64,000 nucleotides of DNA from the NCBI GenBank assembly GCA_905339405.1, contig CAJPGC010000016.1, positions 1-64,000 on the forward strand, in the 5' to 3' direction. Each line of letters begins with the position of its first letter. Within the stretch, counting starts at the first letter, position 1. This DNA is from an uncultured bacterium (GTDB taxonomy: Bacteria; Desulfobacterota; GWC2-55-46). The notes beneath the pieces were generated by a model. It was not told where the DNA came from. It was given only the letters and a program-made list of their open reading frames with translations, and searched no databases. Below, in pieces: positions 31,357-47,908 of this stretch. The position numbers and the translations under genes were made by a program.

Positions 31357-32418
31357 ATGGCTGTGAAGGCATTTAAACCCGCGATAGCCGCTTTTTTGCT
31401 GGCACTGGCTGCCGCGATATATTTCTATTACGCCAGGGAAGGCAAGCCGCCGGGGTATATCGAGACAACCGGCGTAATCGAGGCGGCCGAGGCCGAGCTC
31501 TCATCTAAAATTGCGGGCAGGATAAGCTGGCTCTGCTGCGTTGAAGGGGGACGCGTGGAAGCTGGCGCGGCCGCCGTCAGGCTGGAAGCGTCCGAGCTTG
31601 AGGCAAGGCTCCTCGAAGCGCGCGCGGATGCAGTGGCTGCTGCCGAGGCGGTCAGCGAAGCAAGGATTGGCGCGGAGAACGCGGCCGTCGAGAGGGAAGC
31701 TTCCGCTTCAGTTGTAGAGGCCGCGGCAGCGGAAACCGACAGGGCGGCTGCCCTCGAAAAGGAAGCGAGCGAGAACTACAAGCGGGCCCAAAACCTTTTC
31801 GACGGCGGGTACATATCAAGGCGCGACCTCGACAGCGCACGGGCCGCTTATGAGTCGAACCTCGGGCTTTTGAATTCCGCACGCGCCCGCTCTAAGAGCT
31901 CGCAGGCTGACTTGAGGGGCGCTGGAGTGGCCATAAGGGGCGCGAAGGCCCGTATAGCGTCGGCAATGGCCAGAAAGGAAGCAGCTGAAGCCCAGGTCGA
32001 GGTGATCGCCTCGCAGCTCAGGGACACGGAGATAGTCTCGCCGGTTTCCGGCATAGTCTCGTACAAGGCCTTCGAGGCCGGCGAGTACTTAACGCCAGGG
32101 GATGCCGTTTATACGATCTACAACCCGTCTCAAATTTGGGCGAGGGTCGATATAGAAGAGAGCAGGGTAAGTGATATAAGGCTCGGGAGCCGCGCGGCGA
32201 TAACCCCTTCGGGAGGCGGCCGCTCGTTCGATGGGCGCGTCATGGAGATAGGCGAGCTCGGCGGCTTCGCGACCCAGCGGGACGTAACCAGGGGAAGGCC
32301 GGACATAAAGACCTTCAGGGTAAAGGTCAGGGCAGATGCCTTGGAAGGCTTTCTGAAGCCGGGCATGACCGTGAACGTGAGGATATACCTCGACGATGGG
32401 CAACGTGAAGGCGATTGA
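31357..32418 (+). CDS. HlyD-type adaptor of ABC-2 exporter
   Basis: A 353-residue membrane fusion protein: one N-terminal anchor (about 8-25), a lipoyl-like segment (GRISWLCCVEGGRVEAG), a very long Ala/Glu-rich helical hairpin (about 80-215), then beta-barrel strands (VSPVSGIVSYKAFEAGEYL). The layout is like YbhG. It ends inside the ATPase gene, overlapping by 23 bases. Confidence 0.86.
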   Translation: MAVKAFKPAIAAFLLALAAAIYFYYAREGKPPGYIETTGVIEAAEAELSSKIAGRISWLCCVEGGRVEAGAAAVRLEASELEARLLEARADAVAAAEAVSEARIGAENAAVEREASASVVEAAAAETDRAAALEKEASENYKRAQNLFDGGYISRRDLDSARAAYESNLGLLNSARARSKSSQADLRGAGVAIRGAKARIASAMARKEAAEAQVEVIASQLRDTEIVSPVSGIVSYKAFEAGEYLTPGDAVYTIYNPSQIWARVDIEESRVSDIRLGSRAAITPSGGGRSFDGRVMEIGELGGFATQRDVTRGRPDIKTFRVKVRADALEGFLKPGMTVNVRIYLDDGQREGD

Positions 32419-33406
32419 GACGGTAGACCTCGTTAAGAGGTACGGCACGCTTACGGCGCTCGGCGGCGTGAGCCTTGAGGTGCCGGAAGGGGAGTTCTTC
32501 GGTCTCCTCGGCCCTAACGGCGCAGGCAAGACGACTCTTATAAGGATACTTACGACGCTTCTCAACCCTACTTCGGGCACTGCCCGGGTCATGGGGCTCG
32601 ACGTGGTTAAAGAGAGTTCCAACGTAAGGGGGCTCATCGGGGTGGTCCCGCAGGCCATGACGAGCGATCTGGACCTCACCGGCTACGAGACAATGGACAT
32701 ATACGCGAGGTTCTACGGCATGCACAGGGCCGAGCGGCGCGCCAGGATAGACGAGCTCCTCGACATGGTGGGCTTAAGGGACAGGGCAGGCGACCTTGTG
32801 GCCACCTACTCGGGAGGAATGCGCCGGAGACTCGAGATTGCCCGGGGCCTCGTGCACAAACCTTCGCTTCTCATCCTCGACGAGCCTACGATCGGGCTTG
32901 ACCCGCAGTCCCGCCACGTCGTCTGGGAGCTTCTAGAGCGCTTCAGGAAGGCCGACAGGCTTACGATCCTTCTTACCACCCATTACATGGAAGAGGCCGA
33001 ATCGCTCTGCGACCGGGTCGCCATAATAGACTACGGAAAGATAGTCGCCCTCGATACGGTGCCCGGCCTCAAGAAGGCCATCCCACAGAAAGACTCGATC
33101 GAGCTTGGAGTGGCGGGCGTTGATATGGACAGGGCAGTCGAATGGGTCAAAAAGCTCCCGGGCGTTACTTCAGCCTCTTTCGCCGAGTCGACCCTGACCG
33201 TCTTCTCCGAGCACGGGGCCGAAGCGATCCCCGCTTTGATGGAAGGGCTGAGGGGTATTGGCGGGCGCGTTACAAAGGTGACTCTCAAGGAACTGTCGCT
33301 CGAGGACGTCTTCATACATTATACCGGCAGGCCCATAAGGGAAGAGGAGGCGAAAAAAGTGAGCTTCCTTCTCGGAGCGGGCGTGCCTTCGAAGTGGGGC
33401 AAGTAG
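32396..33406 (+). CDS. ABC-2 exporter ATPase (DrrA/YbhF-like)
   Basis: A 336-residue nucleotide-binding subunit with Walker A GPNGAGKTT, signature YSGGMRRRLEIARG, Walker B LLILDEPTIGLDP and switch His in LLTTHYMEEA. The C-terminal 100 residues are the extension usual in drug or polyketide exporters of the DrrA type. The start at ATG 32396 lies inside the adaptor gene; GTG 32405 is an alternative. Confidence 0.92.
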   Translation: MGNVKAIETVDLVKRYGTLTALGGVSLEVPEGEFFGLLGPNGAGKTTLIRILTTLLNPTSGTARVMGLDVVKESSNVRGLIGVVPQAMTSDLDLTGYETMDIYARFYGMHRAERRARIDELLDMVGLRDRAGDLVATYSGGMRRRLEIARGLVHKPSLLILDEPTIGLDPQSRHVVWELLERFRKADRLTILLTTHYMEEAESLCDRVAIIDYGKIVALDTVPGLKKAIPQKDSIELGVAGVDMDRAVEWVKKLPGVTSASFAESTLTVFSEHGAEAIPALMEGLRGIGGRVTKVTLKELSLEDVFIHYTGRPIREEEAKKVSFLLGAGVPSKWGK

Positions 33407-33409
33407 CCC

Positions 33410-34531
33410 ATGCACAGGTTCCTCGCCATCTTTGAAAGGGACTTGAGGAAGTTCATCCGCAATCCGCTCGTCGTGGCGATGAGCCTCCTCATGCCCATTA
33501 TCTATCTCGTCATACTCGGCAACTCGTTCCAGGGTGAGCTGAAGAACCTCCCGGTCGCCGTCGTTGACCTCGACTCCGGCCCTTATTCCAGAAAGATCAT
33601 GGAGCTTCTGGCAGCGGTAGAGGCGGGCCCGGCGACCCTCGAGCTTGTGAGGGTCGCTGACCAGGGCTTCGCAATGGAGGGGTTGAGGCAGGGCGTATTC
33701 AAGGCCGCAATCGTCATACCGGGGGGCTTTTCGCGCGACGTAATGAGGCGGCGCTTGAGCGAGGTAGGCCTGTACCTCGACAACGCCGAGACTATCTCCG
33801 CCATGACAATAAGGGCGTCTGTCACGGCCGCGCTTTCGGAATTAAGGGACGAGTTCGTCTCCATCAGGGAGGAGAGGGGAGAGTTTCGCCTCCGTGACAT
33901 GGAGCTCTACAGGAAAATCGACTACGACCAGACGCTTATACCGGGCGTGGTGATAATGGCGATCTTCCTGGGGGCGATGACGACCGGCGCGTTCAACATG
34001 GTCATGGACAAGTTCCTCGGGGTGGAGGAGAGCTACTTCCTCACCCCTCTCTCCAAGACCGATATCGTGATGGGGCTCATCGCCAGCGGCCTTCTCATCA
34101 CGACCGTCCTCGCTCTCGTCGTGCTTTTTCTGGGCTCCCTCATGTCGGGGCTTTTCTTCTGGGGAGGGATGACATTCATGACTTTCGTCCTGATGCTGGC
34201 CGTCATCGTCCTTTCCACTCTCGGCCTTCAAGGGCTCATGTTCATGATAATGGGCAGGATAAACCACCCGAGGATAGTCGGCGTGCTCGGCGGCTTCTTG
34301 AACGTGATACTCTTTTTCCCGAGCGGGGCCATCTACCCCATCGAGAGCTTCCCGGGCTGGCTCAAGGCCTTTGCCGCCGTAAACCCCGAGACATATTCAG
34401 TCCACGCCATGAGGGCGCTCCTCTTCAAGGGCGCAGGGCTCCAGGCAGTGCAGGGCGACCTGGTATTTCTTGCGGTCTTCGCGGTCTTTTCGGTCCTTTT
34501 CGGCATGCTCGCCTTCAAGAGGGCCCTGTAG
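33410..34531 (+). CDS. ABC-2 type permease
   Basis: A 373-residue ABC-2 membrane subunit. One N-terminal helix (VVAMSLLMPIIYLVI), an extracytoplasmic region (about 50-170) and a bundle of five helices with VEESYFLTPLSKTD and FPSGAIYPIESFPGW. It completes the adaptor-ATPase-permease unit; the spacing to the ATPase is 3 bases. The substrate is unknown. Only one permease is present, so it likely acts as a homodimer. Confidence 0.9.
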   Translation: MHRFLAIFERDLRKFIRNPLVVAMSLLMPIIYLVILGNSFQGELKNLPVAVVDLDSGPYSRKIMELLAAVEAGPATLELVRVADQGFAMEGLRQGVFKAAIVIPGGFSRDVMRRRLSEVGLYLDNAETISAMTIRASVTAALSELRDEFVSIREERGEFRLRDMELYRKIDYDQTLIPGVVIMAIFLGAMTTGAFNMVMDKFLGVEESYFLTPLSKTDIVMGLIASGLLITTVLALVVLFLGSLMSGLFFWGGMTFMTFVLMLAVIVLSTLGLQGLMFMIMGRINHPRIVGVLGGFLNVILFFPSGAIYPIESFPGWLKAFAAVNPETYSVHAMRALLFKGAGLQAVQGDLVFLAVFAVFSVLFGMLAFKRAL

Positions 34532-34539
34532 GGGGCGCG

Positions 34540-34569
34540 TTGAAAAAAAGAGCGGGGCTGTGATATATT
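34540..34569 (+). promoter_or_regulatory. Probable promoter of fprA
   Basis: TTGAAA (34540-34545) and TATATT (34564-34569) with an 18-base spacer, about 50 bases before the start codon. Confidence 0.45.
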
Positions 34570-34615
34570 TTTCATATAGCCGCTGTAAACTTGCCTTTTC
34601 GGAAGGAGTTCTGTC

Positions 34616-35794
34616 ATGGAGCCGAGAAAGATAACAGAAGGCGTTTTCTGGGTAGGGGCCGTGGACTGGGACAGGAGGCTCTTCGACTCTCTCATCCCTC
34701 TTCCAGACGGCACGAGTTATAACGCGTATCTTATAAAAGGCACGGGCAAGACCGCGCTCCTCGATACCGTCGACCCGGCCATGACAGGCGTACTCATGGC
34801 CAACCTCGCTGGAGTCGAGAAGATAGACTACGTAGTAGTGCACCACGCAGAGCAGGACCATTCGGGCTCTTTGCCCGCCGTGCTTGAGAAATACCCGCTG
34901 GCGAAGGCCGTTTGCAATGCCAAGTGCAAAGATTTCCTCATGGACCTCCTGCACCTGCCGGAGGACAGGATAGTCACCGTGGCAGACGGCGAACTCCTCG
35001 ATTTGGGCGGCAAAACTCTCGAGTTCATATTCACGCCATGGGTGCACTGGCCCGAGACTACGTCGACCTTCCTCCGCGAGGACGGCATACTTTTCAGCTG
35101 CGACCTCTTCGGGTCGCACCTGTCGTTCCCGGGCCTGTACGTCGATGACGAGCAGAAGGTCTGCGAGGCCTCGAAGAGGTACTTCGCCGAGGTCATGATG
35201 CCCTTCAGGCCCACGATCAAAAAACATCTCGAGAGGCTTTCCGGGTTCGCCATTAAGACGATAGCCCCTAGCCACGGCCCGCTTTATAAAGACCCTTCCT
35301 GCATCATGGACTCGCACAGGTACTGGGTCTCGGACAAGGTCTCCAATACGGTCATTATACCGTTCGCCACGATGCACGGCTCGACCGAGATGATGGTCGA
35401 GCGCCTCGCTGGGAGCCTGTACAGGCGCGGGATAAAGGTCGAAAGGTTCAACCTCGCCAATGCGGATACAGGCAGGCTAACGATGGCGCTCGTCGACGCG
35501 GCAACAGTTGTGTTCGCCTCGCCGACGGTCCTCGGCGGGGCACATCCGCTCGTCATATCGGCCGCCTTCCTCATAAACGCGTTGAGGCCCAAGCTCAGGT
35601 ATTCGGCCATAATAGGTTCTCTAGGATGGGGCGGGAAGATGGCCGAGCAGGTGTCGGCCAACATCGGCGGCCTAAAGGCCGAGAGCCTCGGAACGATACT
35701 CGTCAAGGGCAGGCCGAGGCAGGACGACCTCGCGAAGATAGATTCTCTCGCGGAACTGATAGAGGCGAAGCATAAAGAGAGCGGAATACACTGA
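34616..35794 (+). CDS. A-type flavoprotein (FprA / flavo-diiron protein)
   Basis: Flavo-diiron protein, 392 residues, reducing O2 to water or NO to N2O in anaerobes and microaerobes. The metallo-beta-lactamase-like half has di-iron ligands in HAEQDHSG (77-84), then CDLFGSH and SHGP; the C-terminal flavodoxin half starts near residue 250 ([13 protein letters not shown]). There is no fused rubredoxin, so an electron donor must come from elsewhere. It fits an oxygen-defence role in a mostly anaerobic host. Confidence 0.93.
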
Positions 35795-35811
35795 CAACCG
35801 GGAGGGCACAC

Positions 35812-36231
35812 TTGAAATCGTTCCGCAAAGAGCTTTTTTTTGAAATCCCCGCCAGGGTAGGCTTCGTCAACATCACGCCGCAGGTAGAGCAGTGCCTCAA
35901 GGAGAGCGGCGTGAAGGAAGGGCTCGTCCTCGTCAACTCCATGCACATAACCTCTTCGGTCTTCATCAACGACGACGAGAGGGGGCTCCACAAGGACTTT
36001 GTCGCCTGGCTCGAGGAGCTCGCCCCGCACGAGCCTGTCTCGCAATACAGGCACAACGACACCGGCGAGGACAACGCCGACGCCCACTTGAAGAGGACTG
36101 TCATGGGCAGGGAAGTGGTCGTGGCCGTCACGGGCGGCAGGCTTGACTTCGGCACATGGGAGCAGATATTCTACGGGGAGTTCGACGGCAGGCGAAAAAA
36201 GCGCGTGCTCGTCAAAATAATCGGGGAGTAG
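35812..36231 (+). CDS. YjbQ/UPF0047 family protein
   Basis: A 139-residue protein of the YjbQ family (some members are reported with weak thiamine phosphate synthase activity). Family blocks are [21 protein letters not shown], shortened here to [13 protein letters not shown], then [15 protein letters not shown] and [19 protein letters not shown]. It starts at TTG 35812, six bases after GGGAGG. It follows the flavoprotein by 17 bases. Confidence 0.88.
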
Positions 36232-36237
36232 CTCTCG

Positions 36238-37433
36238 TTGCTGGAAAAGCTGATATCGCTGGCCGGTCTCGCAATATTTCTCGCCATTGGCCTTGCCCTG
36301 TGCTCTGACAGAAAACGGATAAACTGGCGGCTCGTCGCCTGGGGCGTCGGCCTGCAGTTCGTATTCGCCGTATTAATCCTCAAGACCTACCCCGGCCTTG
36401 TCGCCTTCGACGCGGCAAGGCTCGCCATGACGTCCGTCCTCGACTTCAGCGACATAGGCTCGCGCTTTTTCTTCGGCACTCTCGTCAGCGACGTCAACAT
36501 CGGCGCCATCTTCGCCTTCAAGGTCCTTCCGGTCATAATCTTCGTCTCATCCCTCATGGGCGTACTCTTTCATCTCGGCGTAATCCAGCTCATCGTGCGC
36601 GCGATGGCGTGGGTGATGGAGAGGACCATGAAGGCCTCGGGCGTTGAGGCCCTGATGGCGGCCATGTTCGTCTTCATGGGGATTGAGGCCACGACGAGCG
36701 TGAAAGAGTACCTCCGCAAGATGACCACCTCGGAGATGTTCACGGTAATGACCGCCTTCATGTCGACCATCGCCGGGTCTGTAATGGCTGTTTACGTCAG
36801 CTTCGGGGCGTCTGCCGGGCATTTGCTTGCGGCTTCCGTCATGAGCGCGCCCGCGGCCATAGTCATATCCAAGCTCATGCTGCCCGAGAGCGAGGCAATA
36901 AGCGTGAACGAAGGCAGGGGCCTGCTGAAGACGGCGACGTAAACATAATCGAGGCCGCCGCCAACGGCGCGTCAGACGGACTTCGCCTCGCCGCCACGAT
37001 AGGCGCGATGATGCTCGCCTTCGTCGCGCTCATCGGCATGATGAACCACTTTTTCTCTTACGCTGCCACTTCCTTTGAGCAGATATCAGGATACGTCTTC
37101 ATGCCGTTTGCCTGGCTTATGGGCGTGCCCTGGGAGGACTGCGGCAAGGTAGGCGAGCTTCTGGGAATAAAGGTCGTCTTCAACGAGTTCATCTCGTACC
37201 AGAAGATGCAGGGGATGATAGAAGCTGGCGTTCTTCAGCCGAGGTCGGTGACGATCGCCACTTACGCCCTTTGCAGCTTCGCGAACTTCGGGTCGATTGC
37301 CATTTTAATCGGCGGTATCGGGTCGATTGCGCCGGAGAGGAAAAAGGAGATTGCGCGCCTCAGCCTCAAGGCCTTGCTCGCCGGGGTGCTGGCGAGCTTC
37401 ATGACCGCGACGATAGCGGGGCTGCTGGTGTAA
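36238..37433 (+). pseudogene. nupC-like nucleoside transporter, frameshifted
   Basis: Concentrative nucleoside transporter family. Frame one (TTG 36238 to TAA 36942, 234 residues) covers the N-terminal half including GVIQLIVRAMAWVMERTMK and MFVFMGIEATTSVKEYL. The second half resumes in another frame from about 36915, reading EDGDVNIIEAAANGASDGL and continuing through NEFISYQKMQ and CSFANFGSIAILIGG to 37433. One missing G in the GGGG run near 36918-36921 restores a product of about 398 residues, the family norm. This is a genuine mutation or an assembly error; no slippery heptamer suggests programmed shifting. Confidence 0.88.
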
Positions 37434-37437
37434 GTTT

Positions 37438-37466
37438 GTCATTCTGAGCGGAGCGAAGAATCTCGT
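37438..37466. repeat. Left inverted flank of AT-rich island
   Basis: A 29-base copy of the common GTCATTCTGAGCG...GAAGAATCTCGT repeat, starting five bases after the nupC stop. Its reverse complement recurs at 39084-39112 (26 of 29 matching). Confidence 0.8.
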
Positions 37467-37487
37467 CTATACCGCTTGGGCAGTTGG

Positions 37488-37560
37488 GTAGGGTGAGCTG
37501 TGCCCACCAATTAAGATGAGATTTTCACATCGCGGAAACGATGGGCGGAGCACACCTTAC
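37488..37560. repeat. 73-bp imperfect palindrome
   Basis: GTAGGGTGAGCTGTGCCCACC at the left is matched by the inverted GATGGGCGGAGCACACCTTAC at the right. This is a typical small interspersed palindrome. A partial copy of its arm (GTAGGGTGTGCACCGTCCACC, 39116-39136) lies at the far side of the island. Confidence 0.7.
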
Positions 37561-37578
37561 AAGACTTAGGAGAGGGAA

Positions 37579-37920
37579 ATGAAAGTAGAAGAACTCATTA
37601 ATGCGCAATTACATGCTCCAGAAGGAACCAGCTTACCCAAAGATAATGAAATAGTCACTTCCTGCCCCAAATGTCATGAAAACCAAAATTTGGGAGAAGC
37701 AAAGATTGTAGATGCGGACCAGGAAACCATTTATATATGTAAAAATGGATGTCAACCTATTATTATAGTTGGATTGCCTGGGGGAACTTCCTGGCCTGGT
37801 CGGGGATTCCGTTTGGGGAGTCATGTTATTCGAAATATAAGCGAAGTTTTTATTCCTCTCATAGGTTCTGACGGTGGTATCAAGATACCAGCAAGTCCTG
37901 ACGCGCTTGATAGGCACTAA
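37579..37920 (+). CDS. Zinc-ribbon-like protein of AT-rich island
   Basis: A 113-residue soluble protein behind AGGAGAGG. It has a CPKCHE...ICKNGC arrangement (Cys 29/32 and 54/58) suggestive of a zinc ribbon, then a Gly-rich GLPGGTSWPGRGFRLG segment and a beta-rich end. Codons are AT-rich, unlike the neighbours. It is 48 bases upstream of the next island gene and probably co-transcribed. No family recognised. Confidence 0.7.
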   Translation: MKVEELINAQLHAPEGTSLPKDNEIVTSCPKCHENQNLGEAKIVDADQETIYICKNGCQPIIIVGLPGGTSWPGRGFRLGSHVIRNISEVFIPLIGSDGGIKIPASPDALDRH

Positions 37921-37968
37921 ATAGTTTCGAGGGCGATATCTACATTAGAAGCGTTTTTAGGAGTTGAT

Positions 37969-38640
37969 ATGGAATATTTGAACTTACTAAGACAAGAATG
38001 GCACCAACTATCGTCTGCACCAATTTCATTTCTTATCCTCACTATAGCAGCTTTTGTTGCGGGATATTTTGTTGCGAGATGGCGCTATGAAGCAATAGTT
38101 GCGTTAATGGGTGAGCGGATTGAGGTACAAAAAGACCGTTTGACTGCTAAAGACGACCAGTTAAGTGTATATAGGGAAAGGCTACATCTTATACCGACTG
38201 AGACGAACACATTTACAAGACTCTCGAATAATGAGATTAAAAAAAGGACTTTGGACCTGATAAAAAAAATTCGTGAATTTTTAAAGGATCGAGGAGACCG
38301 TCATATGGAATTTGTATTCGTATCCTCGAATGGGCGAAATAATAGCGAAATAGGTGAACAAGAAAAACGTAAGATATGGGAACAAGAAACACAAGCTATG
38401 CTGAGAAATTTTTCTAAAATGTGTTCAGATTATAATACATTATTTAAGGTGGATACCATTTTGCTTCGCGATGAACTTCTCTCTCGTCTCCCCTCTTCCG
38501 CAAAGAGAGAGCAAGAATACCGAACTTATGAATATCCGACTAACCTTATTGGCATGACTGCAGTCGCCGATGATTTAGAAAGATTGGCCAAGAGTCTTCC
38601 CATCAGCCATGAGGAAGATAAAAGAAGTCCGGTTTTATAG
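37969..38640 (+). CDS. Membrane-anchored coiled-coil protein of AT-rich island
   Basis: A 223-residue protein with one N-terminal membrane helix (about 19-36, FLILTIAAFVAGYFVA), then a coiled coil (about 40-75) and a soluble C-terminal domain with DLIKKIREFLKDRG, EFVFVSSNGRNN and VDTILLRDELLSRLP. The first 60 bases of 37981-38040 hold 23 G+C, against 40 of 60 in nearby nupC. The function is unknown; membrane anchor plus coiled coil is also seen in accessory defence and stress proteins, but that is only a shape argument. Confidence 0.7.
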   Translation: MEYLNLLRQEWHQLSSAPISFLILTIAAFVAGYFVARWRYEAIVALMGERIEVQKDRLTAKDDQLSVYRERLHLIPTETNTFTRLSNNEIKKRTLDLIKKIREFLKDRGDRHMEFVFVSSNGRNNSEIGEQEKRKIWEQETQAMLRNFSKMCSDYNTLFKVDTILLRDELLSRLPSSAKREQEYRTYEYPTNLIGMTAVADDLERLAKSLPISHEEDKRSPVL

Positions 38641-38683
38641 CAGGTGCGTTTTGCACACAATTGAATTTTTGCCATTCCTTTGG

Positions 38684-38768
38684 CGGGTTCAGGTTTGTAA
38701 CCTGAACCCGAACATTTCGGACCAGTTGCCAGTTTGAACTAAAAGGTTCAGGGTGCAACCCTGAACCT
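38684..38768. repeat. Two hairpins after island gene 2
   Basis: 38684-38710 is a 12-bp perfect stem with a TGT loop; 38744-38768 is an 11-bp perfect stem with a GCA loop. Both stems share GGTTCAGG. They follow the island's second gene and may end its transcript, though no clear T run follows directly. Confidence 0.7.
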
Positions 38769-38789
38769 GCAAAAAGTTTTTTGTCTTTA

Positions 38790-39083
38790 CCCATGCGCCG
38801 TAACATGCGGAGCGCGCCTAAGGGATGAAGGGCGAATCGCGACGGGGAAGCTGGGAGCGAAGCGACCTTGGGGGAGCGATTCGCGGGTAGGAGAGGCGGA
38901 AAGCGTGCGACATTTTTTGCAGGGACAGCAAAAATTGAACTTAGAGCGTAAGCGAGAAGGCCCGGAGGGGCGAGCCCCAGGGATGGGGCGAGATAAGCAT
39001 GTTACAGAGAGCGGCGGCAGCCGCGTTACATGGTATTTAAGAAATAACAACTTTGAGCGGCAGCGCGCTTGGTCGAATAAAGA
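38790..39083. other. Structured GC-rich non-coding stretch
   Basis: No convincing gene is present. Inverted repeats are visible (GCGAATCGC / GCGATTCGC around 38830-38890; TGTTAC / GTTACA around 39000-39030). It may be a degraded mobile repeat or structured RNA remnant. A minus-strand frame here beginning MHTLPCHSERSEES is a translation of the flanking repeat and not a gene. Confidence 0.45.
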
Positions 39084-39112
39084 ACGAGATTCTTCACTTC
39101 GTTCAGAATGAC
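39084..39112. repeat. Right inverted flank of AT-rich island
   Basis: The reverse complement matches 37438-37466 in 26 of 29 bases, so the island is framed by inverted copies. Confidence 0.8.
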
Positions 39113-39147
39113 AGGGTAGGGTGTGCACCGTCCACCAGTTTCAGCAA

Positions 39148-40281
39148 TTACCGCCTCTCCACCTCGAACCTCGGCTCTCCCTCGACGAGTATCTCTATTT
39201 TCTCCTCGCCTCTTACGACCTCCATGTTCGGTCTGAAGAAGATGAAGTCCTGGTGAAAGGGCACGCTCACTTTGCCGCCGAATGATGAGTTGTCGCCGAG
39301 CGCGATGTGCACCGTGCCGAGTATCTTTTCTGTCTCAAGTATGTTGTCCGGCCTAGAGGCCTTGTCGTTCGTGCCTATGCCGAGTTCTGCTATGTTGCCG
39401 CAGAGCGGGTTTTTGGCTATCCTGTCGCGCAGGTCCCGCGAGAACTCGTCGTTGCCGACAACTTCCACGACCTGCCCTTTTTTCACGATGAGCTCGACAG
39501 GGTTATGGAACTTGCCGGTCGGAGCCCATTCGAGCACCATTATACCGTCGGCAGTGCCTTCGACCGGCGCTAAGAATGCTTCCCCGGCGGGGAGGTTGCC
39601 AAATGAGCCGCGCTCCGTCAATATCCCGGTGTCGGGCAGGACCGCCCTGCCTTTCATGGAAAAGCTGATGGACGTACCGTTGCCGGAGGTGATGACGACT
39701 GTCTCAGCCCCCGACATCATGGAGACGAGCCTTTTTGTTCTTCTTTCGACCTCGGTCCAGTCTGCGGTCATCGCGCCCTCCAGCATGAAACGCTCGAAAA
39801 GAGGCATGCTGGCGTACCTGACGCCTTTGACCCTGGTGAGGAAGTCCCTGAACCTCGTGTGCGAGGTCGAGTAGTTCGAAAGTGCTATTATCGCGTCCGG
39901 CGAGGTCGCGTGCTTCTTTATTATCTCTTCAGCCGCCTTGAGCGCGTCCGCGTTTGCCTTCTTGGAGAGCACCGGCTCGAGCAGGCCCGACTCGTCGAGC
40001 ATATTAACCGCCTTCGGCCCGAAGCACGCTTCCCAGAGCTCCCTGGGTGGTTCCTTGCCGTGGCTCCCGGCTGCCTTGAACTTGAGGAGGTCGACTTTGC
40101 AGAGGCCCTCCCCGGCGTCGGCAACGTCGCGGGCTATGCCGACGAGGGCGACCCTTCTGCCCCTTTCATCTTCGGTTATATCCTCGTCCTCCCCGACGAG
40201 GTCGGTAAATACTATGACCCTTTCGCCTGGCTTGACCCCGAGGTTTACGGTGTATATGCGTTTGAGTGATTCTGACGGCAT
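39148..40281 (-). CDS. Aminopeptidase-like metallopeptidase (M29-like)
   Basis: A 377-residue protein of the thermophilic aminopeptidase (M29)-like group. It has the C-terminal metal-site style motifs ELGIGTND, GTVHIALGDNSSFGG and SVPFHQDFIF, and a central domain with SGNGTSISFSMKGR and LPAGEAFLAPVEG. The soluble, N-terminal half is diverged. It is probably a cytoplasmic peptidase; the exact substrate is unknown. It is divergent from the NtrC-type regulator. Confidence 0.8.
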   Translation of the reverse strand: MPSESLKRIYTVNLGVKPGERVIVFTDLVGEDEDITEDERGRRVALVGIARDVADAGEGLCKVDLLKFKAAGSHGKEPPRELWEACFGPKAVNMLDESGLLEPVLSKKANADALKAAEEIIKKHATSPDAIIALSNYSTSHTRFRDFLTRVKGVRYASMPLFERFMLEGAMTADWTEVERRTKRLVSMMSGAETVVITSGNGTSISFSMKGRAVLPDTGILTERGSFGNLPAGEAFLAPVEGTADGIMVLEWAPTGKFHNPVELIVKKGQVVEVVGNDEFSRDLRDRIAKNPLCGNIAELGIGTNDKASRPDNILETEKILGTVHIALGDNSSFGGKVSVPFHQDFIFFRPNMEVVRGEEKIEILVEGEPRFEVERR

Positions 40282-40385
40282 TCGACACTCCTTGTTAGAC
40301 AGCCTTAATTGTTACCCTCAATATATCATCGGCCCCTTTTTTGTCAATCCGCCGACTCGTGCGCTGTCTTCCCGTGTTCAAAATA

Positions 40386-40415
40386 TTGACATGGTAAGTA
40401 CCTCTAAGATATAAT
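40386..40415 (+). promoter_or_regulatory. Sigma-70 promoter of NtrC-type regulator
   Basis: Perfect TTGACA (40386-40391) and TATAAT (40410-40415) with an 18-base spacer, 45 bases before the start codon. The master-type regulator is therefore probably vegetatively expressed, unlike the sigma-54 operons downstream. Confidence 0.8.
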
Positions 40416-40459
40416 GCGAGTCAAAATCGCCCCTTGCATCTCACCAGGAGACCGGTCAC

Positions 40460-41893
40460 ATGGGAATCTGCACTATCCTTCTCGTTGAGGACGAAGAGTA
40501 CATCAGGGAGTCCCTGAAAGAAATTCTCGAGATGAACGGCTACAAGGTCACGACAGCCCATAACGGAGAAACGGGCATAGAGGCCGCCTCGAAATCGAGT
40601 TTCGACATACTCATAACCGATTTGAAGCTCCCCGGCACAGACGGCATCGGGGTCATACGTGCTGTAAAATCCAAATCGCCGGACACGGCCTGCATTGTCC
40701 TCACCGGGTACGCCTCTGTCGAGACGGCCGTAGAGGCCATGAGGGTCGGCGCGTTCACTTATCTCAAAAAGCCCCTCAACAAGGACGAGCTCCTCGTAAT
40801 CCTCGAGAAAGCGAAGGAATTCCATTCGCTCAAAGAGGAGAACTCCAAGCTCAAGGACGAGATAAAAAAGAGCTGCACCACGGCCATCCTTGGCACCAGC
40901 TCTGAGATACAGTCTGTCCGCGACATAATCGACAAGATAGCCGACACCGACTCTACCGTCCTCATCCTCGGCGAGAGCGGTACAGGCAAGGAGCTCGTGG
41001 CCAGGGCTCTCCATTACGGCAGCACCCGCAGCAAGAAGCCCTTCGTGCCCATCAACTGCGGGGCAATTCCAGAAGACCTCCTCGAAAGCGAGCTTTTCGG
41101 TTATGAAAAAGGCGCCTTTACCGGAGCTATAGCCACGAAGATAGGCAGGTTCGAGGCGGCCGACCAGGGTACCGTCTTCCTCGACGAGATAGGCGACATG
41201 AGCCCGGGCCTCCAGGTCAAGATACTGAGGGTCCTTCAGGAAAAGGAGTTCGAGAGGGTAGGTGGCAGGAACACCATAAAGGTCGACGTCAGGGTCGTGG
41301 CCGCGACCAACCAGGACCTCGAAAAGGCGGTCGAGGAGAAAAAATTCAGGAACGACCTGTACTACAGGCTCAACGTAATACCCATCCACCTGCCGCCTTT
41401 GAGGGCCCGCAGGGAAGACATCCCCGTCCTTGTCGAGCATTTCATCGAAAAGATGGAAAAAAGAAAGAAGAAATCGATAAAAGGCGTGAGCCAGGAGGCT
41501 TTGAGGTCCTTTGAGGCGCACGATTGGCCGGGCAACATAAGGGAGCTTGAAAACCTCATGGAAAGGCTCATAGTCCTCAAGGAGGAGGGCAGCTTCATAA
41601 CGCCTAAGGACCTGCCGGAGAAGATAAGGCAGTCCAAGAGCGCCTCTGCCGCCGCTTCAGTGAACCTCCCGGCCGACGGGGTCGATTTCAACGAGGCCGT
41701 CGACAACTACGAGCGCGAGCTCATCATAAGCGCCCTGCAGCGGGTCAACGGCATAAAGAAGAAGGCAGCCGAGTACCTGAACCTCAACAGGACAACACTC
41801 ATCGAAAAGATGAAAAGAAAGGGGCTGCTCGACCAGTACGACACCGCAGAGACCTCCGAAACAAATGAGGCGAACGACCTCGCAAGGTCATGA
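40460..41893 (+). CDS. Sigma-54-dependent response regulator (NtrC family)
   Basis: A 477-residue transcription activator: receiver domain with phospho-acceptor Asp54 (ILITDLKLPG), AAA+ domain with Walker A GESGTGKE, GAFTGA loop (contacts sigma-54) and an arginine-rich end, then a HTH_8 domain (NGIKKKAAEYLNLNRTTL). The partner kinase is not adjacent on its 5' side. Position before the flagellar cluster suggests control of flagella, but another target is possible. Confidence 0.93.
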   Translation: MGICTILLVEDEEYIRESLKEILEMNGYKVTTAHNGETGIEAASKSSFDILITDLKLPGTDGIGVIRAVKSKSPDTACIVLTGYASVETAVEAMRVGAFTYLKKPLNKDELLVILEKAKEFHSLKEENSKLKDEIKKSCTTAILGTSSEIQSVRDIIDKIADTDSTVLILGESGTGKELVARALHYGSTRSKKPFVPINCGAIPEDLLESELFGYEKGAFTGAIATKIGRFEAADQGTVFLDEIGDMSPGLQVKILRVLQEKEFERVGGRNTIKVDVRVVAATNQDLEKAVEEKKFRNDLYYRLNVIPIHLPPLRARREDIPVLVEHFIEKMEKRKKKSIKGVSQEALRSFEAHDWPGNIRELENLMERLIVLKEEGSFITPKDLPEKIRQSKSASAAASVNLPADGVDFNEAVDNYERELIISALQRVNGIKKKAAEYLNLNRTTLIEKMKRKGLLDQYDTAETSETNEANDLARS

Positions 41894-42044
41894 TTTTGAC
41901 GCGAGAGGCCTGACCGGCGTCATGGCTTCAGGAAATGACGGCCGGACTATCTTTATGAGACCTCTCCACTTGTAAGCCCAAACGCCTGTTTTTCCAATCC
42001 TTTTCTTCGCAATCCCTTCGTAGTTACAAGCCCGTCCAAGTGCT

Positions 42045-42061
42045 TTGGCACGCTTGTTGCT
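42045..42061 (+). promoter_or_regulatory. Sigma-54 promoter of TPR-flrBC-like unit
   Basis: TTGGCACGCTTGTTGCT matches the -24/-12 consensus with correct 12-base GG-to-GC spacing. The predicted start is near 42072, at the edge of the hairpin described for this leader. Confidence 0.88.
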
Positions 42062-42072
42062 TCTGTGTCTTG

Positions 42073-42098
42073 TCCGTAATACCAGAAAACATTACGGA
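42073..42098 (+). promoter_or_regulatory. Leader hairpin at predicted 5' end
   Basis: TCCGTAAT and ATTACGGA pair perfectly across a 10-base loop. The stem starts at the predicted transcript start and ends at the A of ATG 42098, leaving no free ribosome site before that ATG. Confidence 0.55.
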
Positions 42099-44407
42099 TG
42101 GACCTGATGTGGCTTAAGACCATGCTCCTCATAGCTTTCCTGCTTTCGTTCGCCTCGCTTGCCGAAGCGGCCGAGGTCGTCGCCATGCGCGCCTACGACC
42201 ACAAGGAATTCCACAGGCTTACCTTGATCATCTCCCAGGACGTCGTCTTTACCGCTGAAAAGGGTGATGAGAAGCTCGTCCTCAAGCTGCGGGAGCTTTC
42301 CGTGAAGCCTTTAAAGGAGCTTCCCTCGACCGAGGCCATAAAGGTCATGAGTTTCAGGCAGTCAACAGACGAAGCCGGGGCTTACGCCGCCCTCGAGGTC
42401 GCCATGCCAGCCGGTTCCACCGTAAAGCAGACCATAAAGGCCGGTCCTTTCAGGCTTATCCTCGACATATACCCTCCGGCCGGTTACGCCAGGAAAAAAG
42501 AGATGGCCCCTCAAGTGAAGGTGGCCCTCATGGAGCAGGACGCCTCGGCGGTGCTGGCGTTCAACGATTCATGGCGGTGGGTATACAGGAAAAAGATGAT
42601 CGACACGCTGAGGGCCGACCTCTATTCCGACGGCGCTGCAGAGGCCTTCAGGGCCAGTCTCGGTTTTGATGCCATAGACTCAATAGCTGTCGAGACGCAG
42701 GCGGCAGGCCATATCGCCCGGCTCAAGGGCAATGGCCGCGAGGACGACGCGGCCCTTCTCTCAGAGGTCATGCGCTTTTACTCGTCCGGGCAGGAGACGG
42801 GCCTCGAGAATACCCTCAGGGGCGCGTCAAACAAAACCATAAAGGGGCTAGGCTACTTCCTTCTGGCAGAGCATTACGAGAAAAAGGGCTTTTTCCCGGA
42901 GGCGTCCGGTTATTACACGCTCGCGGGCAGGTCGGCGAAGGACTCTCTCGGCAAGCTCGTCATGTTCCGGAAGGCGAGGCTTGTTTTTTTCAACCATAAA
43001 TATTCAGAGGCAAAGGACCTTTTCAAAAAGGCGCTTGACGCCGGTTACACCGACGCCAGGGGCTGGCTTGCCACAACCTGCATCATAAAGGGCGAGCTCG
43101 AACTGGCGTGGGATACTTTCGTCGGGCTCAGGACCTCAGGGGAGCTCGACCCGGTGACTTCGCTCGGGCTCGCAGACATGCTCCTGGTGAAGGGCAAGTA
43201 CCAGGAGGCGCGCTTCATATTCGCCTCGATGAGGGCAAGATACCCCAAAGAAGGGCTTCTCAGCATCTATCTCGTCTCGAGGGAAGCCGACGCCTACTTC
43301 CTGGAAGGGAAGAGGCGTGAAGCGATCGACCTGTATACAAAAACAAAAGAGAAGCTCAAGGGCGAGCCGTGGGCCATCGCGACACTTTCGCTCGCTGACG
43401 CCTACTTTGTCATCGCCACGCGCGAGGAGATGGAAAGGGCCGAGAAGATGTACCTGGCGATCGCTTCCGGCGGCTTCGAGGGTTCCGCCATTGCGAACAT
43501 GAGGCTTGTGGCCTCGCGCATGGCCCTCGGCAGGCACAGCCAGGCGTATGAGGTGATAAAGAATTTCCATGCCAAATACCCTACAAGCCCCTTGAGGCAG
43601 GACATGAACAGGGTCTCATCGGCCCTTTTTTACAGCTGGATAGATTCCCTGATTGAAAAAGAAGACCACCTGGGCGCCGTCAAGCTCTATACCGAGACGC
43701 CACTTACCGTGCCTTTCGGTAAAAAAGCCGAGGTCAGCCTCAAGATAGCCAAATCGTGCAGAAAAATAGGCCTTTTGAGCGAGGCAGTAAGGCACCTCGA
43801 TATTGCCGTGAAGATAGGTGACGGGGCCACAGCCGAGGAAGCTATGCTCCTTCTTGCGGGCATATACCTCGACCAGAACGATGGCAACGCCGCCGGGAGG
43901 CTCATGAAGGCTTTTGGCAACCGCTTCCCCAGGACGAAAAGGACCGCTGACGTAGAGAGGCTTGCCGCGCGGCTTGCCTTCATCAACAAGGACTACCAGA
44001 AGAGCGCCGGGCTTTCCAGCGACGGTGGTAACGCGGCCCTCATATCCATGAAAGCCGATTCGCTTTCAAAAACCGGAAAGCCGAAAGAAGCAACCCAAAA
44101 CTTCGAGAACGCGGCCCGCACGTACTCGGACGCTGGCGAGACGGACGCGGCCTCGAACGCGTGGCTCCGGAGCGCCGACTCCAGGTTCTCCTCCGGCGAC
44201 TACCGTGGGGCAGCAGAGGCTTACAGAAAAGGGATGGACTCGGCCGGCAAGGACGACAGGTCCTGGGCCCTGTACAGGCTCGCGAGGTGCTACGCGAACC
44301 TCGGCTTGAAAGACGAGGAAGCAGAGGCGCAGAAGGAATTGAAGGCCATGGGCGGGGAGTTCGGCGAGTGGTCAGAGAAGATTTTCGAAAAGGCGAAAAG
44401 CCTCTAG
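42098..44407 (+). CDS. Secreted AMIN-like/TPR repeat protein
   Basis: A 769-residue protein with a signal peptide (1-24, ending AEAAE), an AMIN-like beta domain (about 25-130, including YDHKEFHRLTLIISQDV and GPFRLILDIYPPAG), then a long array of TPR helices (about 200-760; LGLADMLLVKGKYQEARFIF, DGATAEEAMLLLAGIYLDQN style repeats). Such proteins often bind peptidoglycan through AMIN and act as periplasmic assembly scaffolds. ATG 42098 or ATG 42107 are candidate starts. It heads the sigma-54-driven unit with the FlrBC-like pair. Confidence 0.82.
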   Translation: MDLMWLKTMLLIAFLLSFASLAEAAEVVAMRAYDHKEFHRLTLIISQDVVFTAEKGDEKLVLKLRELSVKPLKELPSTEAIKVMSFRQSTDEAGAYAALEVAMPAGSTVKQTIKAGPFRLILDIYPPAGYARKKEMAPQVKVALMEQDASAVLAFNDSWRWVYRKKMIDTLRADLYSDGAAEAFRASLGFDAIDSIAVETQAAGHIARLKGNGREDDAALLSEVMRFYSSGQETGLENTLRGASNKTIKGLGYFLLAEHYEKKGFFPEASGYYTLAGRSAKDSLGKLVMFRKARLVFFNHKYSEAKDLFKKALDAGYTDARGWLATTCIIKGELELAWDTFVGLRTSGELDPVTSLGLADMLLVKGKYQEARFIFASMRARYPKEGLLSIYLVSREADAYFLEGKRREAIDLYTKTKEKLKGEPWAIATLSLADAYFVIATREEMERAEKMYLAIASGGFEGSAIANMRLVASRMALGRHSQAYEVIKNFHAKYPTSPLRQDMNRVSSALFYSWIDSLIEKEDHLGAVKLYTETPLTVPFGKKAEVSLKIAKSCRKIGLLSEAVRHLDIAVKIGDGATAEEAMLLLAGIYLDQNDGNAAGRLMKAFGNRFPRTKRTADVERLAARLAFINKDYQKSAGLSSDGGNAALISMKADSLSKTGKPKEATQNFENAARTYSDAGETDAASNAWLRSADSRFSSGDYRGAAEAYRKGMDSAGKDDRSWALYRLARCYANLGLKDEEAEAQKELKAMGGEFGEWSEKIFEKAKSL

Positions 44408-44420
44408 GGAGGGTTCCGTT

Positions 44421-45251
44421 ATGAACGAGCAGCTGCCGGTAGAGCTACTGAACGACGCTTTCAACGGCTTCAGGGACGCGTCGAGGAAACTCGAAGAGCA
44501 GTACGCGCTTCTCGAGGACAGGATAGACGAGCTCTCCCAGGAACTCGCCGAGAAGAACAGGGCCCTTGAAAGGACGAGGCGGCTGGCCGCGATGGGAGAG
44601 ATGGCCGCCAGGGTGGCCCACGAGATAAGGAACCCGCTGGGCTCGATGGCGATATTCGCAACCATACTCGAAAGGGAGCTGGGGGCCGAGCCGGAAAAAC
44701 AGCGGCTCGCCAACCACATATCTACGGGCATAAAGTCGCTCGACAACCTGCTTTCAAACATGCTCCTGTTCGCAAGCTCCCCTGAAGCCAAACTGAAGCC
44801 TGTAGACGTAAGAAAGGTCCTGGAAGAGGCTCTCCTGCTTGCCAGGGGGCACGAGAAAGAGGACGTCTCGGTTAAGGCCGAGTTCTGCGGACAGACGTCA
44901 ATCATGGCAGACCCGGTGCTCCTGAGGCAGCTCTTCCTGAACCTCATTATAAACGCGATAGACGCCATGGACAGAGGCGGCGTGCTGAAGGTGCGCACGA
45001 AGGTGATCGATGACAGGCAGAGGTATATGGAGATAAAGTTTGCCGACACCGGCAGAGGCATAGGCAAAGAGCACATCGACAGGGTCTTTGACCCGTTCTT
45101 TTCGACTAAAGACCGGGGAACCGGCCTCGGGCTCGCCATAGTCTCGACGGTCGTGAACGCCCACGGCGGCTTCATAGACGTCGATTCAGTCAAGGGCGAG
45201 GGGACGGCCTTTACGATAGGCCTCCCGATGATGAGGGAGTACAGGATATGA
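44421..45251 (+). CDS. FlrB/FleS-like histidine kinase
   Basis: A 276-residue cytoplasmic kinase without membrane helices. N-terminal coiled coil (about 15-55), phospho-acceptor His67 in VAHEIRNPLGS, and an ATP domain with NLIINAIDAMD, FADTGRGIG and GTGLGLAIVS. This layout and the 4-base overlap with the next gene fit FlrB/FleS, which phosphorylates the flagellar activator FlrC/FleR. Confidence 0.9.
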   Translation: MNEQLPVELLNDAFNGFRDASRKLEEQYALLEDRIDELSQELAEKNRALERTRRLAAMGEMAARVAHEIRNPLGSMAIFATILERELGAEPEKQRLANHISTGIKSLDNLLSNMLLFASSPEAKLKPVDVRKVLEEALLLARGHEKEDVSVKAEFCGQTSIMADPVLLRQLFLNLIINAIDAMDRGGVLKVRTKVIDDRQRYMEIKFADTGRGIGKEHIDRVFDPFFSTKDRGTGLGLAIVSTVVNAHGGFIDVDSVKGEGTAFTIGLPMMREYRI

Positions 45252-46627
45252 GGCGCGTTCTTGTAGTCGACGACGAGCCGGGTATGAGGCTCGCGATAAA
45301 GGAGGCCCTCACGCGCAGGGGCTACGAGGTAGGCCTGGCCTCCAACGGCCGCGAGGCGCTGGCCGAGTTCTCCCTGTCAAGCTACGGCATGGTGATAAGC
45401 GACATGAACATGCCCGGCATGGGCGGCATGGAAGTCCTCCGCGGAGTCAAAAAGGCGGCCCCCCACGTGCCGGTCCTCCTCATAACAGCTTTCGGCACGA
45501 TAGAGACGGCGGTCGAAGCCGTAAAGGAAGGCGCAATCGATTTCATCTTGAAGCCCTTCACTCTCGAATTCCTCGAGCAGACAGTCGAGAAGTCTTTCAG
45601 CACAAGGGAAGCCGTCTCGGACTTCGAGGCGAAGGGCAAGGCGATGCTCGCCCGGGGCCCCGTGATGCAGAAGGTCGTGTCGATGGCGACGGTCGGCGCT
45701 TCAAGCGACGCGACAGTCCTCATATCCGGCGAGAGCGGCACAGGAAAGGAGCTCCTGGCGAGGTTCATACACGAGATGAGCCCGAGGAGGGAGCGTCCCT
45801 TCGTTGCAGTGAACTGCGCCTCCATACCCGAGGGCCTGCTTGAAAGCGAGCTCTTCGGCCACGAAAAGGGGGCCTTCACCGGCGCGCACTCCTCGAGACA
45901 GGGCAAATTCGAGCAGGCGAACACGGGCACCATACTGCTGGACGAGATAAGCGAGATGGACCTGAAGCTCCAGGCAAAGCTCCTTCGCGTGATACAGGAG
46001 AAGGAAGTAGAGAAGATAGGCGGCAAAGGGCCCATCGCGCTCGATATAAGGATAATAGCGACTACCAACAGGGACATGAAAAAAGAGGTGGCAGAGGGCC
46101 GCTTCAGGGAGGACCTTTTCTACAGGCTCAACATATTCCCGGTAACTCTCCCGCCGCTTCGCGAACGCGCTGAAGACCTCGTGCACCTCGCTGGCCACTT
46201 CATGCGCAAGTTCAGCTCCAAGTACAACCGCAGGGTCGAGGAGATATCCGCGGAGGCCATGGAGCTAATAAAAAGGTGCGAGTGGCGCGGCAACATCCGC
46301 GAGATGGAAAATACCATCGAAAGGGCGGTGCTCCTTAGCCAGGGGGCTGCCCTGGAGCCCGAACACCTCCTCATGTGCCAGGAGCTTCCGGGCGCGGAGG
46401 ATACCGCAGTCAAACCGGCTGGCGAGGAAGAAACGTCCGGGTGCTGCCAGACGGTTGTCAGCGAGAGCGCCAATTTGATGACGCTTTGGGAGATGGAGAA
46501 GGGGCTCATAACGAAAACCCTCGGTGAAGTTGACGGGAACAGGACCCAGGCTGCCAGGATACTCGGGATATCGGTGAGGACTCTAAGAAATAAACTCAAG
46601 GAATACGGGCAGATGCTGCCGGCGTAG
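45248..46627 (+). CDS. FlrC/FleR-like sigma-54 activator
   Basis: A 459-residue NtrC-family regulator: receiver Asp52 (MVISDMNMPG), AAA+ with GESGTGKE, GAFTGAHSSRQGKF, and a HTH with NRTQAARILGISVRTLRNKL. The ATP site and GAFTGA loop are intact. It is coupled to the kinase, and is the likely activator of the four sigma-54 promoters of the cluster. A hairpin at 46648-46667 follows. Confidence 0.92.
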   Translation: MRRVLVVDDEPGMRLAIKEALTRRGYEVGLASNGREALAEFSLSSYGMVISDMNMPGMGGMEVLRGVKKAAPHVPVLLITAFGTIETAVEAVKEGAIDFILKPFTLEFLEQTVEKSFSTREAVSDFEAKGKAMLARGPVMQKVVSMATVGASSDATVLISGESGTGKELLARFIHEMSPRRERPFVAVNCASIPEGLLESELFGHEKGAFTGAHSSRQGKFEQANTGTILLDEISEMDLKLQAKLLRVIQEKEVEKIGGKGPIALDIRIIATTNRDMKKEVAEGRFREDLFYRLNIFPVTLPPLRERAEDLVHLAGHFMRKFSSKYNRRVEEISAEAMELIKRCEWRGNIREMENTIERAVLLSQGAALEPEHLLMCQELPGAEDTAVKPAGEEETSGCCQTVVSESANLMTLWEMEKGLITKTLGEVDGNRTQAARILGISVRTLRNKLKEYGQMLPA

Positions 46628-46647
46628 ATGATTTTCGAAAAAAAAGA

Positions 46648-46670
46648 GGGCTGGTAGATACCAGCCCTTT
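46648..46670 (+). terminator. Hairpin after flrC-like gene
   Basis: GGGCTGGTA and TACCAGCCC pair perfectly around two bases; only three T follow, so termination may be partial. Confidence 0.55.
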
Positions 46671-46675
46671 GTACT

Positions 46676-46692
46676 TTGGTACGGAAATTGCT
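46676..46692 (+). promoter_or_regulatory. Sigma-54 promoter of flgB operon
   Basis: TTGGTACGGAAATTGCT has GG and GC 12 bases apart; one deviation (T for C) from the -24 box. The predicted start is near 46703, 33 bases before flgB. Confidence 0.8.
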
Positions 46693-46735
46693 TTTATCTA
46701 ATTGCGAACGCTTTTGAACTGAAAGGAGATAGAGC

Positions 46736-47152
46736 ATGGCAGGCGGGATGTTCGACAGAACGATAAACCTTTTAGGCAACAGTATGGACCTCCGTGCCAA
46801 CAGGCACAAGCTCCTTTCAGCCAACATCGCCAACCAGGAGACGCCCGGCTACAGGGCCGTCGACATCAATTTCGAGCAGGAGATGAAAAAAGCCGAAGGC
46901 TCCGTGCCCTCGGGCCAGCCCCTTGCGGCCACGAACGCCATGCACATCTCAACCGGCGGGGGCCCTTCGGCCCTGGTGCCGACGGTGGTCGACAGGGTAA
47001 CGGACCTGGAGGGCTACGACAGGAACTCCGTAGGCATAGAGGGAGAGATGGCGAGGCTTTCCGAGAACACCATCATGTACAAGACTTCGGCCCAGCTCTT
47101 GAAGCACAAATTCGGTCTCCTCATGACAGCGATAAGGGAAGGAGGAAGGTAA
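46736..47152 (+). CDS. flgB: Flagellar basal-body rod protein FlgB
   Basis: Proximal rod subunit of 138 residues exported through the flagellar secretion system. Typical N-terminus (NLLGNSMDLRANRHKLLSANIANQETPGYRA) reduced here to SANIANQETPGYRA, and a C-terminal helix with NTIMYKTSAQLLKHKF. First gene of the rod and MS-ring run, behind AAAGGAG. Confidence 0.95.
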   Translation: MAGGMFDRTINLLGNSMDLRANRHKLLSANIANQETPGYRAVDINFEQEMKKAEGSVPSGQPLAATNAMHISTGGGPSALVPTVVDRVTDLEGYDRNSVGIEGEMARLSENTIMYKTSAQLLKHKFGLLMTAIREGGR

Positions 47153-47155
47153 AAA

Positions 47156-47581
47156 ATGGCTGATCTTTTTTCGGTAAGCGCTTCCGGCATGGAGGCGCAG
47201 AGATTCAGGATGAACATAATCGCGAGCAACCTCGCGAACGTAGAGACTACAAGGACTGAAAGCGGCGGCGCCTACAGGAGAAAAGACATTGTCTTCGCCG
47301 CTCAGGGAGAGGGCTTCGGCGGCTTCCTGAAGCAGGCGATGGACGGGGCAGCGCCCGGGGTCAAGATAGCCGGAGTGATAGAGGACGCCAGGCCCCTTAA
47401 GCACGTATATGAGCCCGCCCACCCGGACGCCAACGCCGAAGGGTACGTTGCTTTCCCCAACATCAACGTGGCCGAGGAGATGGTCAACATGATTGCCGCC
47501 TCGAGAAGCTATGAAGCCAACGTCTCCGCCTTCAAGGCGACAAGAGAGATGGCGCTGAAGGCGCTCGAATTAGGGCAGTAA
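47156..47581 (+). CDS. flgC: Flagellar basal-body rod protein FlgC
   Basis: Rod subunit of 141 residues. SASGMEAQRFRMNIIASNLA and NVETTRTESGGAYRRKDIVF form the conserved N-terminus, and NINVAEEMVNMIAASRSYEA the conserved C-terminus. It follows flgB by 3 bases. Confidence 0.95.
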   Translation: MADLFSVSASGMEAQRFRMNIIASNLANVETTRTESGGAYRRKDIVFAAQGEGFGGFLKQAMDGAAPGVKIAGVIEDARPLKHVYEPAHPDANAEGYVAFPNINVAEEMVNMIAASRSYEANVSAFKATREMALKALELGQ

Positions 47582-47605
47582 GGAAATAACCGGGAGGACT
47601 GACCA

Positions 47606-47905
47606 ATGGTCGATTCGATAAGAGGTTCGATAAACACGGGTATGGACATCGCCTCCGCCGGCAAGCAGACGGCGGGCGTCAAGGAAAGCGGCTTCGCGGA
47701 CGTCCTCAAGGATTCCATCGAGAAGGTCAACAGCATCCAGAGCGAGGCGGACCAGGCCATAAAGGGGCTTTCGACCGGGCAGGTCAACAACATACACGAG
47801 ACGATGATTGCCATAGAGAAGGCGAACTTGTCCTTCAACATGATGGTGCAGGTGAGGAACAAGCTCGTCAGCGCGTACGAGGAAATAATGAGGACGCAGG
47901 TATAA
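47606..47905 (+). CDS. fliE: Flagellar hook-basal body protein FliE
   Basis: A 99-residue adaptor between the MS ring and rod. The C-terminal half has the family helix (IHETMIAIEKANLSFNMMVQ) and VRNKLVSAYEEIMRTQV end. It is 3 bases from fliF. Confidence 0.94.
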   Translation: MVDSIRGSINTGMDIASAGKQTAGVKESGFADVLKDSIEKVNSIQSEADQAIKGLSTGQVNNIHETMIAIEKANLSFNMMVQVRNKLVSAYEEIMRTQV

Positions 47906-47908
47906 GGC

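Follow-up and report, generated by a model that had tools for sequence, protein, structure and literature searches.

The AT-rich gene pair described here, P1 and P2, is in all likelihood a horizontal acquisition, a lineage-specific arrival at a variable intergenic spot. On sequence comparison, P1 is the free-standing form of a domain found elsewhere as the C-terminus of TIR proteins. We tentatively favour, at somewhat short of even chances, the reading that the pair is an acquired operon of anti-phage type, in which a zinc-ribbon sensor or adaptor is joined to a membrane partner. The inverted 30-mers that frame the pair are resident, dispersed REP-like elements and not the ends of a cassette. 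By the window we mean the whole stretch of DNA analysed, 64,000 nucleotides of a contig from an uncultured bacterium.

Composition and setting of the gene pair

P1 (37579-37920, plus strand) is an open reading frame (ORF) of 113 aa with a zinc-ribbon-like domain, and P2 (37969-38640, plus strand) is an ORF of 223 aa with one N-terminal transmembrane segment followed by predicted helices of coiled-coil-like character. The two genes lie on the same strand with a gap of 48 bases, each is preceded by AGGAG, and they are likely to be co-transcribed. The initial annotation had described two genes that were AT-richer than their neighbours, and our recount of G+C (23/60 at 37981-38040 versus 40/60 at 36601-36660) agreed with this description, as did two further measures. 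G+C across P1-P2 was 39.6%, the minimum for the window, which had a mean of 56.9% and a standard deviation of 3.0 points (1060-base windows). GC3 was 30% in P1 and 33% in P2, compared with 83% in the UPF0047 gene and 81% in the N-terminal part of nupC. The composition of the pair is unlike that of the host, as expected of a horizontally acquired island. Of 1000 mononucleotide shuffles of this stretch, 23 contained an ORF of at least 113 aa and not one contained an ORF of at least 223 aa.

A genome of the same genus (G001) is collinear with the window over 32137-47977 at ~80-81% identity, with a single break (blastn; flanking blocks 32137-36232 and 39111-40298). The stretch that is absent from G001 (36233-39110) lies between the UPF0047 gene and a gene for an M29-like peptidase, and contains nupC, P1, P2, and repeats. 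In its place, G001 carries an unrelated ~0.86 kb with a membrane ORF of 36% G+C and other short palindromes around it. The product of this AT-rich gene (L023:2700-3275, on G001:C17) is a multi-pass membrane protein that matches nothing in Pfam, and GTAG-type palindromes lie on both sides of the gene. In a further genome of the genus (G003), the M29-like peptidase gene is flanked by other genes, and P2 was not found in any of the other three genomes of the genus, two of which are incomplete. Since the pair combines foreign GC3 with absence from a collinear genome of the same genus, we interpret it as a lineage-specific acquisition, which bears out the earlier view of a recently acquired cassette; the pair is not a fixture of this locus across relatives. 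Which foreign genes occupy this repeat-crowded intergenic spot appears to vary between strains, probably through recombination in or near repeats.

A frameshift near 36930-36940, which could be a mutation or an assembly error, divides the nupC-like nucleoside transporter gene within this stretch (36238-37433). The two resulting ORFs, 36238-36942 and 37008-37433, match the N and C parts of Nucleos_tra2.

Dispersed repeats around the pair

The pair is framed by a left REP-like 30-mer, TGTCATTCTGAGCGGAGCGAAGAATCTCGT, at 37437-37466 (plus strand) and an inverted right copy at 39084-39113 (minus strand), which are 90% complementary over 30 nt. The pattern is expected by chance zero times in the window. 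In the 2.65-Mb genome it has 30 copies within three mismatches, 15 per strand, compared with none for the reversed control pattern. We found no literature on this repeat sequence itself, but its layout, a TGTC tag and an AT-starting imperfect palindrome, is shared with the CGTC-type REP. GTAG- and CGTC-tagged REP classes are tagged short palindromes with many dispersed copies (PMC3733652), and the 30-mer has both properties.

AT-rich stretches were not significantly enriched at the 30-mers over control windows. The lowest 600-base G+C fell below 42% near 5/31 copies, which represent about three independent sites, versus 10/107 control windows (Fisher p 0.33). The medians differed slightly, 0.495 near 30-mer copies versus 0.518 in controls (Mann-Whitney p 0.0002), a shift that an intergenic location would be expected to produce. 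Because the 30-mers are dispersed genome-wide and show no significant enrichment of AT-rich stretches, the frame does not define a mobile unit. The inverted repeats noted in the initial annotation are thus real, while their specificity to the island did not hold up. A discrete transposable unit ending in the 30-mers is a very improbable account of the island. Their inverted, closely complementary arrangement just outside the two genes would suit such a unit, but another inverted pair, 4 kb apart on contig C9, encloses host-like G+C, no transposase or recombinase ORF lies between the arms, the difference from G001 extends beyond the arms to include nupC, and the right-hand side is made up of a separate dispersed repeat family. 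More generally, inverted repeats that flank a foreign island may turn out to be resident REP elements.

The right-hand family is a dispersed composite repeat at 38777-39068 (plus strand), in which module A (38777-38905 plus 38996-39068; roughly 200 bases) is interrupted by a nested module B (38907-39000; roughly 93 bases). Module A without B and module B alone each occur separately. Dozens of copies or part-copies were present in this genome and in all three relatives searched, that is, in all four genomes of the genus. In G001, a lone module B sits within a REP-like CGTCATTGCGAGG...GCAATCTC repeat. The nested modules look like small non-autonomous elements across these genomes (G000-G003).

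Short palindromes also flank the pair, GTAGGGTGAGCTGTGCCCACC at 37488-37508 (plus strand) on the left and GTAGGGTG...CACC at 39116-39136 in the same orientation on the right. These are most likely what had earlier been described as a small palindrome with a partial copy. Their build fits the GTAG-type REP (PMC3733652), a likeness by described layout and not by family consensus. GTAG-type palindromes were present here and at the G001/G003 site, and absent from 356 kb of sampled host sequence. Two perfect palindromes, GGGTTCAGGTT/AACCTGAACCC and AGGTTCAGGGT/ACCCTGAACCT, lie at 38683-38770 and can also form one long hairpin (-44.6 kcal/mol). The second of these was flagged as terminator-like on the minus strand, and no second copy of the palindrome pair appeared among the repeat-search matches in the genome. 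No Rfam family reached gathering level in the island; a mir-582 match over the palindromes was at chance level and was rejected.

Elsewhere in the genome, we observed a second AT-rich island (34-37% G+C; L039:8608-9503, on G000:C23) near a 30-mer repeat. Its ORFs encode a small cysteine-rich zinc-ribbon-like protein and a membrane-anchored protein, neither with a confident family.

P1, its TIR-fused relatives and P2

P1 consists of a zinc-ribbon-like part (CPKC ... CKNGC) followed by a conserved QPIIIVGLPGGTSWPGRGFRLG..VIRN motif. No family match was found in Pfam, NCBIfam, PADLOC or PHROG. Weak Pfam matches over the cysteine region, to DUF6510 (15.2 bits) and Cys_rich_CPXG (12.7 bits), were well under the curated cut-offs (26.4 and 25.2, respectively) and left the second half of P1 uncovered. 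A profile search identified four relatives with 40-48% identity, all of which carry the domain as the C-terminal part behind a TIR_2 domain. One (L027) is a 275-aa TIR protein from a Robiginitomaculum MAG, with 45% identity to P1, found by genome-contig scan. The other three (L040, L042, and L045) were found among viral contigs by DNA patterns for the P1-type domain, not for TIR. Their TIR parts were recognized with E-values of 3.5e-15 (L027), 9e-16 (L040), 3.6e-11 (L042), and 8e-18 (L045). Alignment of P1 with these relatives gave 25 invariant columns, including four Cys and WPGRG, and the spacing of the Cys residues is common to all five sequences. P1 thus has the conserved CPxC ... CKxGC and WPGRG domain of TIR-zinc-ribbon proteins and lacks their N-terminal TIR; it gave no TIR match in its 113 aa, and no TIR ORF adjoins P1-P2. 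Judged by these alignments, the tie between P1 and the TIR proteins is solid as homology.

The P1-type domain is rare. No further convincing match came from the phylum of the window (395 genomes searched), nor from 398 genomes of the phylum and 381 of the class to which the Robiginitomaculum genome belongs, and neither P1 nor its relatives had a match in plasmid and phage collections. Weak matches (L029, a multi-haem-like protein, L030, L046, and L047) were discarded.

Three of the four relatives lie in viral or prophage-like contigs. We note that the names terminase, portal, and integrase were read from the sequences, not from a family search. L042 carries portal/terminase-like genes and a Vsr endonuclease, and the P1-type TIR gene of L045 adjoins a phage-type integrase gene. 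In L040, which also carries a large terminase gene, two TIR genes are adjacent and have a membrane-protein gene on either side. The four-gene run (L040:1886-5578) encodes, in order, a membrane protein, the TIR plus zinc-ribbon protein, a second TIR protein whose tail is also cysteine-rich but different, and another membrane protein. The two membrane proteins had no family match in Pfam or PADLOC; considered as candidate relatives of P2, they showed no similarity to it and were rejected.

P2 has its transmembrane segment at about residues 17-36 (hydropathy 2.12 at residue 17-18), and the remainder is predicted to be helical in a low-confidence all-helical model. No relatives were found in 395 + 398 genomes, genome contigs, viral contigs, plasmids or phages, where the contig scans used short exact peptide patterns that distant relatives could escape. 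Weak matches (L032 and L033) were rejected because their reading frames overlap other genes or run antisense to them (a mutL-like gene and one for a large membrane protein). No P2-like gene lies beside any of the four TIR-fused relatives of P1. The recurrence of the pair elsewhere, which had been put forward as a check, was thus not seen. The naming of a zinc-ribbon protein and a membrane coiled-coil protein holds at the sequence level, in the Cys pairs of all five P1-type proteins and the one hydrophobic segment of P2. P1 may well bind zinc. Predicted structures were too poor to use (pLDDT 42 for P1 and 46 for P2), and PDB sequence searches gave nothing useful.

Possible function of the pair

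The TIR parts of P1's relatives resemble known defence proteins. All four match the PADLOC model PDC-S66, and three of four match models of ThsB, the TIR protein of Thoeris, whereas the window pair is without a TIR, without ThsA, and without a direct match to either system. Together with the shared zinc-ribbon plus WPGRG domain, which is fused behind TIR in the relatives but here forms a protein by itself beside a membrane protein, and with the prophage-like setting of three relatives, this gives a defence role, as our analysis weighs it, a little less than an even chance. The earlier proposal of a possible defence module gains indirect support in that all four relatives are TIR-fused and three are prophage-like, and loses some in that no defence model matches and P2 is an orphan. 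Since P2 is an orphan and is absent beside all of the TIR-fused proteins, the case for the pair as a system comes from a single locus.

The most likely model would be as follows. In the TIR proteins that travel as prophage cargo, the P1-type domain may be the C-terminal portion responsible for sensing or for binding a partner. The window pair lacks the TIR effector, and P1 is followed by the gene for the membrane-anchored, putatively helical P2. P1 would recognize an infection-linked ligand or protein and act through P2 at the membrane, with P2 as either effector or anchor. Under this model P1 and P2 presumably make contact, and the pair would be active in defence. A more specific form, in which the pair is a TIR-less two-part defence system that couples a sensing domain detached from a TIR family to an effector anchored in the membrane, seems to us doubtful. 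We detected a single TIR gene in this genome (G000:C1:614-913); it lies on a different contig, and its product has an unlike C-terminus. That P1 acts on this product in trans is only a guess.

The main rival explanation is that P1 is a fragment of a TIR-protein gene without its effector, the TIR having been lost in transfer, with P2 an unrelated passenger and no joint function. P1 does begin exactly at the post-TIR linker of its relatives (MKVEELI aligned to VKVEDVF), the free-standing form was seen once, and P2 was never seen with relatives of P1. Yet P1 has a start and an AGGAG of its own, with an in-frame stop just upstream, no TIR remnant occurs in the 110 bases 5' of it, and all invariant residues of the domain are kept, so that we consider a mere remnant rather unlikely. 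An acquired regulator of membrane stress or housekeeping, in which the zinc-ribbon protein controls the membrane coiled-coil protein and has no part in defence, is unlikely as well. It would fit an operon without a TIR whose two proteins are not directly matched by any PADLOC defence model, a result that also counts against the pair as a defence system, but every known relative of P1 is joined to a TIR, mostly in prophage-like contigs, and bacterial antiviral TIR domains act via NAD depletion (review PMC10952713).

The P1-type domain is undescribed, being without a Pfam, NCBIfam or PADLOC model, and is linked to TIR proteins that prophages carry as cargo; the window provides one case in which it stands alone next to a membrane partner. 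If the TIR-less two-part reading is true, the zinc-ribbon domain would be an exchangeable sensor module. Should the pair prove protective against phage, the domain would be a portable sensor that can be used with different effectors.
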